Source of the DNA: Natrinema marinum
GTDB lineage: Archaea > Halobacteriota > Halobacteria > Halobacteriales > Natrialbaceae
Direction: 5' to 3'
Assembly: GCF_024296685.1 (NCBI RefSeq)
Contig: NZ_CP100763.1
Coordinates: forward strand, 2,666,001 to 2,730,000
DNA length: 64,000 nucleotides
The notes under the pieces were generated by a model that made no database searches, was not told the origin of the DNA, and saw only the letters and a program-made list of their open reading frames with translations. Each line of letters begins with the position of its first letter. Positions within the stretch are counted from its first letter, which is position 1. A program made the position numbers and the translations under genes. This document shows, piece by piece, positions 60,392-64,000 of the stretch.

Positions 60392-60832
60392 CTAGAGGTC
60401 TACGATGGACGAGAGAGATGAAGCATCGGGAATGTGTGGGCCTCGGCACTCATGGTTTTCTACTGTGGTACTACAATTACCACAGTCTTCTATAGGATCT
60501 GAGACGACTAGAATACTTCGGTAATAGGTGATACTATAGTTCAATTCATTTTCAAAAGTTCTCTCTAGAAATACTGTCAGTACTTTAGTTATAATCTCTT
60601 GAACACATAATTCACCCAACTTATTGTCAGATGATATAATATTATCAATGCTAACTGGACCAAGTCCTATATCAAAGGATCGGTGAATGTGACGTGTCGG
60701 GGACTGAACATCAATATCAAGCTCTGCGATATCCACGAAAATGAGCATGAGTGTATCTGTGAGTTCCTTGAACGCAGACTCTATATCGTCCTCTGACACC
60801 AAGATCGGCACCTTCTGGATATAGACGCTCAT
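60392..60832 (-). CDS. Orphan protein in AT-rich region
   Basis: A 146-residue protein starting at the ATG at 60832. Composition is less acidic than the haloarchaeal average, with many Ile, Ser, Thr and Asn codons ending in A/T. The first half (VSEDDIESAFKELTDTLMLIFVDIAELDI) is helical; the rest is mixed, with CVQEIITKVLTVFLERTFENELNY. Three cysteines lie near the C-terminus (DCGNC, HEC). I do not recognise it. A TATA-like box is about 31 bases upstream, and it is divergent from the TGT-like gene. Confidence 0.55.
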   Translation of the reverse strand: MSVYIQKVPILVSEDDIESAFKELTDTLMLIFVDIAELDIDVQSPTRHIHRSFDIGLGPVSIDNIISSDNKLGELCVQEIITKVLTVFLERTFENELNYSITYYRSILVVSDPIEDCGNCSTTVENHECRGPHIPDASSLSSIVDL

Positions 60833-60940: not shown

Positions 60941-61873
60941 ATGGGAAAACGGCCTGAGATTGGCGCATTTGCGGAGGAAGTCGAGGACTTCCACGCGGAT
61001 CCTGATGACTTGGAACATTTTGATCCTCATCTGGTCTTAGGATACTTTCAACGCCTGGAGATGATCTTGGATGAATGTCCTGTGAATATCTATGCGGCAT
61101 CGTCGCTTAAGCATCCCTGGCCATATCGATTGCAAAAGGCCGGGGAGTGTGCTCCGGCATCGTTCTGGCGGAGTCAGCACCGCATCTTGGATTCTAATAT
61201 CACCGATCCACGGGTCACCAATGAGGACATCCTTGAGGAGGCGATACAGAAGGACGCGACAGCTGTCGTTGCCAAAGACTACCTGCCATTTCATCTCTAT
61301 GATCGCAAGTTTGACTTGGAAGAGCTGACGGGGGCAGCAAGCCACAGAGAGGCAACGACCCAAAGCATCCAGGAATTTATCGACCTCCACGATCCCGATC
61401 GGCACCCCCCGGCATATATCCCGCTGCAGCCCCCGTATGTCGATCACATACAAGATATCAGGGAAATTGTCGTCGACAGTCATCTCGAGGAGAAGTACAT
61501 GCTTGGCGGGCTCAAAAACGCGAACCCGAAACGACGGATCAGTGAAGCTCAGGCCCTCCGAGACGAAATCGGTGGCGAGCCGGACCTCCACGGACTGGGC
61601 TGGGGGCTCTCGGACGCCCTTGTTGAATCCCTCCGACACAATCCGGACCTGATTGAGTCCGTTGATAACAGCGGTCCATCACAGGCTATTCTTAACGACG
61701 GCCTGCTTGACAAGCACTGGCAAAAACAACCATTTGGATTGGTCGAAGGACAGATGCGGAACTCGGTCGCAGGTGCATTCGAGTTCGGAATCCTCCTCCA
61801 GGCAACGCACCGGCTCACCAAGTACAATACCGAGTTTACCACGAACCAGAAGAGTATCAGCGACTACCAATAA
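60941..61873 (+). CDS. Divergent TGT-fold protein without zinc site
   Basis: A 310-residue protein. The C-terminal half reads as the later strands of a tRNA-guanine transglycosylase TIM barrel: PLQPPYVDHIQDI, YMLGGLKNANPKRR, HGLGWGLSDALVE and IESVDNSGPSQA (Asp242 at the position of the TGT nucleophile). Earlier, RILDSNITDP and AVVAKDYLPF fall where substrate-binding strands would be. The Cys-x-Cys zinc motif of TGT is missing. This is either a base-recognising partner or a DpdA-like enzyme. It lies 8 bases before the next gene, so they form one operon. Confidence 0.5.
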   Translation: MGKRPEIGAFAEEVEDFHADPDDLEHFDPHLVLGYFQRLEMILDECPVNIYAASSLKHPWPYRLQKAGECAPASFWRSQHRILDSNITDPRVTNEDILEEAIQKDATAVVAKDYLPFHLYDRKFDLEELTGAASHREATTQSIQEFIDLHDPDRHPPAYIPLQPPYVDHIQDIREIVVDSHLEEKYMLGGLKNANPKRRISEAQALRDEIGGEPDLHGLGWGLSDALVESLRHNPDLIESVDNSGPSQAILNDGLLDKHWQKQPFGLVEGQMRNSVAGAFEFGILLQATHRLTKYNTEFTTNQKSISDYQ

Positions 61874-61881
61874 CCCGGGTC

Positions 61882-62331
61882 ATGACGAAAACCTTGGCGC
61901 TTGTAGGCTGTGGAAGCGAAAAACGTGATAAGCGGACGGAAGCGAAGTCACTCTATACCTCCACCTACTTCGCTAAAAAACGGCAGTGGGCCGAAGGATG
62001 CGATACCTGGCGTATCCTTTCTGCTGAACACGGGGTTGTCCACCCAGCCACTGTTTTGGAACCGTACGATACTGCGATGGCCGACCTCAGCGACGAGCAG
62101 ACCAATGAATGGGCGACAGATGTCATAGCCGATTTGGGTCCACAGCTCAGTAACTTTGACAACGTTGTCGTCCTCGCTGGCCGTGACTACTTTGCCCCAA
62201 TCAGTGACGAACTTCGCCAAGCAGCACCCACGGTGCAGTGGCCGTTTCAGGGAAAGAGGCTGTTCGAACAGATGGAATGGCTCAACCAAACCTCTCCCCC
62301 AGATCAGTCCACACTTGGATCGTTCGAATGA
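61882..62331 (+). CDS. DUF6884/YaaA-like protein 1
   Basis: A 149-residue protein. It opens LALVGCGSEKRDKRTEAKSL and continues RILSAEHGVVHPATVLEPYD, the pattern of DUF6884 proteins, which resemble the DNA-binding YaaA family. A ThrLysAla..YTSTYFAKKR helix sits between. The conserved Cys10 and the Ser-Ala-Glu-His (about 46-49) could be catalytic or binding residues. It is the second gene of the operon starting at 60941. Function unknown; the same architecture appears again at 62530. Confidence 0.65.
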   Translation: MTKTLALVGCGSEKRDKRTEAKSLYTSTYFAKKRQWAEGCDTWRILSAEHGVVHPATVLEPYDTAMADLSDEQTNEWATDVIADLGPQLSNFDNVVVLAGRDYFAPISDELRQAAPTVQWPFQGKRLFEQMEWLNQTSPPDQSTLGSFE

Positions 62332-62496
62332 CGCCCGATAAAATCCGACTTTTTCCCCCAAAACAAAACCATAAGAGTATATAATTGACTAGTCGGTTCC
62401 GGTTACCACTCTATATCCATACACTTCAGAAACCGCCGGTATGATGCCTGTACTTGTTGAATTCACCTGTTACACGGCGCGGTAGAGAACGTGGTA

Positions 62497-62506
62497 AGCT
62501 ATAAGG
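62497..62506 (+). promoter_or_regulatory. TATA-like box before the second DUF6884-like gene
   Basis: AGCTATAAGG is centred about 28 bases upstream of the ATG at 62530. A stronger TATATAAT at 62378-62385 lies 150 bases upstream and would produce a leader of about 120 bases; either may be used. Confidence 0.45.
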
Positions 62507-62529
62507 TCTCGGGGTCGAAAGAGGGAACC

Positions 62530-63012
62530 ATGTCAATACTGCTGGTACAGTCATGCTCAAAGTCCAAAAATAGGCCGGGAGAACCGGTCAATGCCCTTGA
62601 ATTGTACTCGGGATACTTCTTCAAAATCATCAAGAAAGCGATACGTGATGATGAACTGCAGGATGAAATCGATATTTGCGTTCTCTCGGCCGAACACGGA
62701 TTAATCGATACAACTGACGAAATCAGCTACTACGACCGACACATGAACCCGGATCGAGCAGCTGAGATCCGGGATGACATTACAACGGAACTGCGAGGAA
62801 GAGTTGCTGAGAACGATTACGAGCATGTCATCTTCAATCTCGGATCAGCATACAGGAGTGCGATCGGCGATCTGTCTGACCTTCCGGCATCGGTCCAGTT
62901 TATCGAAGGCGATGGCATCGGATACAAAGGACACACACTCAAACAGATCATCCGGGGCAACTATTCGTCGCTTGAGATGGAGGTGAGGAATGCCACAGCT
63001 CAAGCAAACTGA
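62530..63012 (+). CDS. DUF6884/YaaA-like protein 2
   Basis: A 160-residue protein related to the previous gene: MSILLVQSCSKSKNRPGE with CSKSK matching CGSEK, ALELYSGYFFKIIKKAI matching the helix SLYTSTYFAKKRQ, and ICVLSAEHGLIDTTDEIS matching RILSAEHGVVHP. Both proteins thus share the SAEHG core. The C-terminal half is different, with HVIFNLGSAYRSAIGD. The 3' end overlaps the start of the TGT gene by 23 bases, indicating translational coupling. Confidence 0.65.
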   Translation: MSILLVQSCSKSKNRPGEPVNALELYSGYFFKIIKKAIRDDELQDEIDICVLSAEHGLIDTTDEISYYDRHMNPDRAAEIRDDITTELRGRVAENDYEHVIFNLGSAYRSAIGDLSDLPASVQFIEGDGIGYKGHTLKQIIRGNYSSLEMEVRNATAQAN

Positions 63013-64000
63013 GCAGACTGCCTCATTCCAGGTTACCGCGACAGCCGGCGATGCCCGTGCCGGGACCCTCACCATCAACGGCCAGTCACTCGACACTCCA
63101 ACGTTTTTCCCCGTTCTAAGTTTCTACGGCGGTGGAACGAAATCCAGCGTCTTCGGCGGCGGCGTTCATAGGACAATAAAGGAGTTCATGCTCGGAAAGG
63201 AGGAGATCGGTGGCGGAACGTACGACAAATACTTCCGCGGAACGATGACCTCCGTTGCCTCCCTCACCGACTATGGCATCAACCAAGAACGGTTTAACGA
63301 TTACACCTCAGACCGAATCAAAGACCGAGAAACGTTTTCCGACTATAACGGCCTCATCTTCGTTGATTCTGGCGGATACAAATTCTTACATAACAATGGG
63401 CTTGACGGGAGTGATTTCGAGATAGAGATCGATCAGCGGGAAGCGTTCCGCATCCAGAAGCAGCTCGGCGGCGATATCATCGTCAACCTTGATCGGCCGA
63501 TCGCACCCAACGACACGTTCGACGAACGGCAACAGAAGGCCGAACGCACCGCCGAAAATGCGGTCGAGTTCGCACGTCTTACCCAGACCTATCCCGGTGC
63601 CCGGTACCTGACCGTCCACGGATATAACTATTCGATGCTCGACCGGTTCTTCGACCACATTCAATCCCAGTTCGGGAATATCGATATCTCCACCCTGTTT
63701 GACGGGATCGCCCTCGGAAGCCTTGTCCCGAAGAAAGATGACAAGGCAGCGTTGATCACCGCGGTCATGGACTGCGTCGAAATCATGGAGGAACGCGGGC
63801 TTGCCGATCTGCCACTCCACGTACTGGGGATTGGCAGTGGATCTATCCCGCTCCTCGTCGCCGCCGGCGCGGACACGTTCGACTCAACGACCTACATCCA
63901 GAACGCGATCAACCAAAAGTACGCCGTGAGTTTGACCAAGCACATTCCGCTGGACGCAGTTGATTTCAACCAGTGTGACTGTGCTGTCTGCTCCGACCCA
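62990..64000 (+). CDS. tRNA-guanine transglycosylase/DpdA-like enzyme, 3' end outside window
   Basis: 337 codons are visible. The TGT active site is complete: VDSGGYKF (Asp126), LDRPIAPND (Asp168), ALGSLVPKKDD, HVLGIGSGS and DTFDSTTY (Asp298, nucleophile position). The zinc site begins with Cys329, Cys331 and Cys334 (CDCAVC). It differs in character from the housekeeping archaeosine TGT, which has a longer C-terminal PUA region. A strong Shine-Dalgarno GGAGGTGA (62980-62987) precedes the ATG. It would exchange guanine for a 7-deazaguanine in tRNA or, as DpdA, in DNA. Confidence 0.75.
   Translation, partial: MPQLKQTEQTASFQVTATAGDARAGTLTINGQSLDTPTFFPVLSFYGGGTKSSVFGGGVHRTIKEFMLGKEEIGGGTYDKYFRGTMTSVASLTDYGINQERFNDYTSDRIKDRETFSDYNGLIFVDSGGYKFLHNNGLDGSDFEIEIDQREAFRIQKQLGGDIIVNLDRPIAPNDTFDERQQKAERTAENAVEFARLTQTYPGARYLTVHGYNYSMLDRFFDHIQSQFGNIDISTLFDGIALGSLVPKKDDKAALITAVMDCVEIMEERGLADLPLHVLGIGSGSIPLLVAAGADTFDSTTYIQNAINQKYAVSLTKHIPLDAVDFNQCDCAVCSDP

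Follow-up and report, generated by a model that had tools for sequence, protein, structure and literature searches.

We analyzed a 64,000-nucleotide stretch of the Natrinema marinum chromosome (the window; bases 2666001–2730000 of a haloarchaeal genome assembled as one 3.77 Mb contig), at the right edge of which begins an operon of six genes on one strand, in the order A-B-C-D-E-F (Table 1). The original prediction, made from the letters of the window, had described four same-strand genes here, and position and strand proved correct for all of them; the operon continues beyond the window edge into E and F. The reading frames of C and D overlap, and the gap between D and E is 2 bases. The operon lies within a low-GC block, 51–55% GC against about 65% for the chromosome, in keeping with the predicted AT-richness of the region (51–53% GC on that comparison).

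Table 1 Features of the operon and its surroundings, in window numbering, continued past position 64000 for features outside the window.
Feature	Position	Strand	Remarks
Gene A, 310 amino acids, zinc-less TGT-fold protein of the archaeal-virus DpdA family	60941..61873	+	homology to HRTV-29 gp33
Gene B, 149 amino acids, DUF6884 (DpdC/YaaA-like) protein	61882..62331	+	Pfam DUF6884 5.4e-38
Gene C, second DUF6884 protein	62530..63012	+	Pfam DUF6884 9e-13; adjoins D and E in all complete loci
Gene D, 414 amino acids, TGT with full active and zinc site	62990..64000, on past the window	+	Pfam TGT
Gene E, 521 amino acids, GHKL ATPase (HATPase_c_3)	about 64237-65802	+	outside the window
Gene F, 829 amino acids, GmrSD (DUF262-DUF1524) nuclease	about 65887-68376	+	outside the window
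GIY-YIG nuclease gene	about 68473-69036 (L004:12474-13037)	opposite	after F
Candidate left attachment repeat GGCCTCGGCACTCAT	60439..60453		putative left end of the element

Enzyme families of genes A to D

Gene D encodes a tRNA-guanine transglycosylase (TGT): it matches the Pfam family (3e-22 to 6.5e-27) and carries both catalytic aspartates and the CxCxxC...H zinc site. The active site is intact, as predicted, with D126, D298 and the zinc ligands C329, C331, C334 and H360 invariant in 43 of 43 D sequences, two of them from plasmids. Its match to the NCBIfam TgtA model (2e-30, 105.6 bits) lies under the equivalog cut-off of 350 bits, i.e., D falls outside the TgtA equivalog. We rejected the role of archaeosine TGT for D, since the housekeeping TgtA and ArcS (the latter with DUF5591, C2 and PUA domains) are separate genes, which lie near 11–20 kb of the same chromosome. 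The lack of a PUA domain in D is not diagnostic, because the genome's own TgtA has no PUA match either. In a small tree, D and a second transglycosylase, TGT2 (see below), each formed a group of their own, distinct from TgtA and another plasmid TGT, the D group being poorly supported. An alignment scan with D returned nothing from the genome contigs, and the viral scans nothing in four of five.

Gene A gave no Pfam, PDB-sequence or NCBIfam match. The predicted TGT fold without a zinc site nevertheless holds in profile–profile comparisons (hhalign) with D (95%, E 2.4e-8) and with the second TGT family (96%, E 1.1e-9). In the profile alignment, D84 of A stands opposite D126 of D, the aspartate of the DSGG motif, and D242 opposite the nucleophile D298; D84, D113 and D242 are invariant across 18 homologues, and the zinc site is missing. 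A had also been taken for a degenerate TGT, a reading we discarded because both catalytic aspartates are kept. An AlphaFold model from a six-sequence alignment found TGTs as 49 of its 50 best PDB matches, although we use it as support only because its confidence stayed weak (predicted local distance difference test, pLDDT, 48.5); a single-sequence fold failed (pLDDT 33). We take A for a probable base-exchange enzyme.

The nearest annotated relative of A is the “DpdA” (gp33) of HRTV-29, Halorubrum tailed virus 29 (tblastn, 26% identity, 2e-15, over 90% of the query), a virus suggested to modify its own DNA using host preQ0 (PLoS Biology 2021, PMC8651126). This homology, together with the invariant residues D84, D113, H217 and D242 common to A and the viral homologues, places A in the archaeal-virus DpdA family. 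A DUF6884 gene precedes the viral dpdA, and an A-family gene with an adjoining DUF6884 gene was present in each of the five loci found in IMG/VR; one of these, with 100% identity and equal length, appears to be HRTV-29. In two haloarchaeal loci, an A-family gene is followed by a DUF6884 gene. The adjacency occurs in proviruses as well as viruses and points to B as the partner of A. Cui and colleagues are said to have named, in 2023, a DpdA4 subfamily of archaeal viruses. The window genome also holds a second A-family (DpdA-like) gene (G000:C1:184774-185346, locus L048), with no DUF6884 gene found nearby.

That B and C are two DUF6884 copies is borne out by Pfam (5e-38 and 9e-13). B has the CxxxK and LSAxxG motifs, and C more likely starts at the ATG at 62530, where its homologues start, than at the annotated GTG at 62491 (173 amino acids). 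Both match the PADLOC model PDC-M57A (B 1e-31, C 2.5e-9) and, weakly, the DpdC models (1e-4 to 5e-3); DpdC itself is picked up by the DUF6884 model (PMC11888242). Comparison of a C profile with DUF5591 was suggestive only (55%). DUF6884 and DUF5591 align weakly, with CxxxK and LS(A/G)xxG in register, an alignment that would fit a common nitrile chemistry without proving it.

Distribution of the core and its companions

Across 394 haloarchaeal genomes of the class (86 genera), E was present in 43 genomes and 26 genera, with one copy decayed, and all 42 non-decayed loci displayed C-D-E in fixed order, i.e., in about 11% of genomes. Among the carriers are members of Halorubrum, Haloplanus, Halorussus, Natrinema and Natronorubrum, with Halorubrum lipolyticum DSM 21995 and Halorubrum coriense DSM 10284 as examples that have TGT2-type islands (see below), and the core is also found on Haladaptatus and Natrinema plasmids; in the copy on the Natrinema thermotolerans plasmid CP031298.1 (L061), D is truncated beside an IS1595 transposase gene. 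Pairwise distances of C, D, E and TGT2 correlate (r 0.75–0.95). The whole A-F unit was found in five sampled genomes, with flanks that differ, two sharing flanking genes. Each of its six genes displayed pairwise dN/dS ratios of 0.02–0.24, and the unit is thus under purifying selection.

We examined the 42 core neighborhoods, each about 19.5 kb. TGT2 is encoded in 31 of them and is mostly 630–680 amino acids long, a TGT domain fused to DUF5591 (the ArcS core) with no C2 or PUA match in the two representatives whose domains were checked; in the remaining six non-A genomes it lies about 10–180 kb from the core. Overall, TGT2 was found in 37 of 37 non-A genomes vs none of the five A-type genomes (Fisher 1.2e-6, not corrected for relatedness), and A and B occur only where the TGT-DUF5591 fusion is missing. 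Because the five A-type genomes without TGT2 carry A and B, a pair (TGT-fold plus DUF6884) that matches the make-up of TGT2 (TGT plus DUF5591), A+B looks like a split replacement of TGT2.

Genes for preQ0 synthesis recur beside the core (QueD in 14 neighborhoods, QueC in 13, QueE in 13 and FolE in 4), an association of queD/E/C that a rough model puts at a chance of about 1e-17. In several genomes the QueC of the island adds to another copy, and in others it is the only one. A single full-length QueC, located elsewhere, is encoded in the window genome and would suffice for preQ0 supply. A DpdJ-like helicase and a DpdK-like PLD protein accompany 11 of the 42 cores and stand directly upstream of A in two cassettes (L036, L037), with none beside the window cassette; the helicase family (HEL8) matches DpdJ at 4e-40, but its 137 bits are under the curated cut-off of 800, and the best match of the PLD family (PLD10) is DpdK. 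Other core loci have MrfA-type helicases, GmrSD, GIY-YIG or DrmABC-like sets.

The original prediction had proposed a rightward extension for nuclease, helicase or preQ0 genes. It added the GHKL ATPase E and the nuclease F and, beside the window cassette, no queCDE. F belongs to the GmrSD family, with DUF262 (1e-27) and DUF1524 (6e-8) both above cut-off and the DGQQR and HILP motifs present. The GIY-YIG gene follows F in four of the five A-F cassettes, occurs in 12 of the 42 core neighborhoods and weakly resembles PDC-M57B (0.024). E-like GHKL ATPases (about 30% identity) are spread across bacteria and other archaea with no conserved neighbor (L166–L202), and we dropped the bacterial relatives as a guide to the partner of E, as no TGT or DUF6884 gene lies within reach of them and they have no neighbor in common. 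A cluster of zinc-ribbon, RAMP-like, Cmr3-like, DEDD-exonuclease-like and HNH proteins recurs beside the core (L119:11153-16671; also L097, L099, L105, L109, L112 and L128), possibly an unusual CRISPR-type effector.

The operon lies on an integrated element of ~41.4 kb. The sole second copy in the stretch of the 15-bp repeat GGCCTCGGCACTCAT is at genome position 2767810 (L204:5811), where it forms the 3' end of an sR-tMet C/D-box small RNA gene; the low-GC block stops there, and synteny with 28 congeneric genomes picks up exactly at the repeat. The right end is thus fixed by synteny with relatives, and we place the left end at the other copy by inference; an empty integration site is not demonstrable on the left, where relatives align from the repeat rightwards only. 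The integration site of the element seems to be the 3' end of this small RNA gene rather than a tRNA gene. Tyrosine integrases are among the genes of the element, along with proteins read from sequence as conjugation-type ATPases and a DISARM-like gene set; DrmA-, DrmB- and PLD-like genes lie on it together with the gene for a MADS mad8-like ATPase (L004:15543-20000, L005:402-3893). Homologues of DrmA, DrmB and PLD stand immediately after the core in locus L038 and near it in L125.

Readings of the cassette

We consider A-F reasonably likely to be a mobile haloarchaeal Dpd-like 7-deazaguanine DNA modification–restriction cassette, carried on the ~41 kb integrated element, and probably an undescribed archaeal system of self-marking and restriction. 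The original proposal of a Dpd-like modification or defense operon is thereby retained in part: D is not the archaeosine TGT, A belongs to the viral DpdA family, relatives sit beside queD/E/C and DpdJ/DpdK-like genes, and a GmrSD nuclease adjoins, while the operon falls outside bacterial Dpd and A is no degenerate partner. Specifically, D and A would swap selected DNA guanines for host-made preQ0, with QueC encoded elsewhere, and C and B would turn the preQ0 nitrile into an amide or amidine, like DpdC or ArcS. E may link the scanning of DNA to its mark status, and F would cleave unmarked DNA, sometimes with the GIY-YIG nuclease, DpdJ/DpdK-like or DrmABC-like modules. The sequences support the enzyme classes and intact sites in this mechanism; we infer that DNA is the substrate, which base is made, what E and F do, in which direction discrimination runs and that self-DNA is protected, as well as the presence of 7-deazaguanine in DNA.

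Several observations weigh against this interpretation. The TgtA models fit D much better than the DpdA models do, which leaves room for an RNA substrate, and the window cassette lacks adjoining queCDE genes. No DpdB was found among the cassette and neighbor proteins scanned, with no genome-wide DpdB search made. Two of the six distant TGT2 copies carry an in-frame stop, and the replacement of TGT2 may be a single event, since the five A-type loci are close relatives. As defense genes cluster in islands, the helicase and PLD neighbors may also be separate systems; we therefore rely chiefly on the invariant core, on the preQ0 genes and on the mutual exclusion of A and TGT2.

The main rival is a type IV-like defense against viruses with 7-deazaguanine DNA, in which the TGT and DUF6884 proteins would bind, flip or exchange the viral base and E and F would cut marked DNA, the host DNA being unmodified. 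GmrSD is indeed a type IV (modified-DNA) restriction family, dPreQ1 makes up about 30% of G in haloviruses such as HVTV-1 (PMC6884629), and an A-type DpdA is encoded by HRTV-29. We nonetheless regard this as unlikely, given that the TGTs retain both catalytic aspartates and that relatives carry preQ0 synthesis genes, needless for a pure sensor. A shade less likely still is an accessory 7-deazaguanine pathway acting on tRNA or other RNA and altering translation in infection. By model score, D and TGT2 are nearest the archaeal tRNA enzymes TgtA and ArcS, and a DNA–RNA hybrid ligand has been proposed by the Pfam authors for the DUF6884 protein YfjM (PMC11701544), yet TGT2 lacks the C2 and PUA domains of the genome's own ArcS, A belongs to a viral DNA-modification family, and the DpdJ/DpdK-like and GmrSD neighbors work on DNA in known systems. 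Cap10, a remodeled TGT-family protein in anti-phage defense (PMC11996544), suggests a nucleobase–protein conjugation as in type IV CBASS (Cap9/Cap10), where the TGT-like enzyme would handle a deazaguanylated partner protein. D matches the Cap10 structure at trace level (E 0.17), but its catalytic and zinc residues are all in place and it is far closer to TgtA, and neither a CD-NTase nor a Cap9/QueC-like conjugase is found among A-F, nor a CD-NTase or Cap9 among the neighbors scanned, so that we view conjugation as very improbable.

Building on the modification–restriction cassette, a broader scenario can be drawn, which we hold as a tentative and rather doubtful one: many haloarchaea would place 7-deazaguanines, perhaps deoxyarchaeosine, in their own DNA as a mark, via an obligate, GHKL-powered pair of D and the TGT-ArcS fusion, and in one lineage a virus-derived DpdA-DUF6884 pair would have replaced the fusion, so that a viral module for anti-restriction came to serve restriction in the host. 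If true, about 11% of the sampled haloarchaea would practice cellular 7-deazaguanine DNA marking, Dpd-like immunity would extend to Archaea with a different core, and tRNA archaeosine enzymes (through the ArcS domain) would be linked to DNA marking, suggesting that the same enzyme pair was exchanged between viruses and hosts. This yields a prediction testable in cultured, named organisms.

Comparison with known systems

In a search of the open-access literature, with subscription papers outside it, neither the C-D-E core nor cellular 7-deazaguanine DNA marking in archaea was found described. The PADLOC candidate PDC-M57 is similar in that B and C match PDC-M57A and the GIY-YIG neighbor weakly PDC-M57B, but it is defined by its own models, and the literature search found no paper on it. 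The BREX-related BRC, a proposed defense system present in some archaea, likewise includes a TGT; its PglZ, DUF6079, DUF4007, HerA and GNAT components are all missing from A-F, and its authors report no DpdC homologue (2026 BREX survey, PMC12839542).

On the Haloarcula sinaiiensis plasmid pHsi139 (NZ_CP073372.1, L059:4771-7677), a 969-amino-acid protein combines a DpdA match (3e-69) with a C-terminal DpdC/DUF6884 part, and its gene adjoins those for QueE, QueD, an EVE and a PD-(D/E)XK protein and a TGT-unknown-BrxD-like ATPase trio, of which a Halobaculum plasmid has a similar copy (L060). This looks like a separate haloarchaeal Dpd-type island.

The operon shares with bacterial Dpd (dpdA-K) a TGT-fold enzyme with a DpdC-like DUF6884 protein, the association with preQ0 genes and, in 11 of 42 cassette relatives, a DpdJ-like helicase and DpdK-like PLD. 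It is not the bacterial system itself, because D (25.5 bits) and A (no match) miss the curated DpdA model NF041059 (cut-off 200 bits), on which we rejected this assignment, and no DpdB turned up among the genes examined. Unlike bacterial Dpd, the cassette has two TGT-fold genes, a GHKL ATPase in its core and a GmrSD nuclease, and its relatives carry a TGT fused to an ArcS-type domain. The archaeosine enzymes TgtA and ArcS resemble it through the catalytic and zinc set of D and the DUF5591 of TGT2, but ArcS has C2 and PUA domains that TGT2 does not, and both are separate chromosomal genes. The YaaA-DpdA pair of HRTV-29 (Dpdavirus) has a DUF6884 gene beside an A-family gene with the same invariant residues; there, the pair stands alone as counter-defense in the order DUF6884-DpdA, whereas in the window A-B stands ahead of C-D-E-F.

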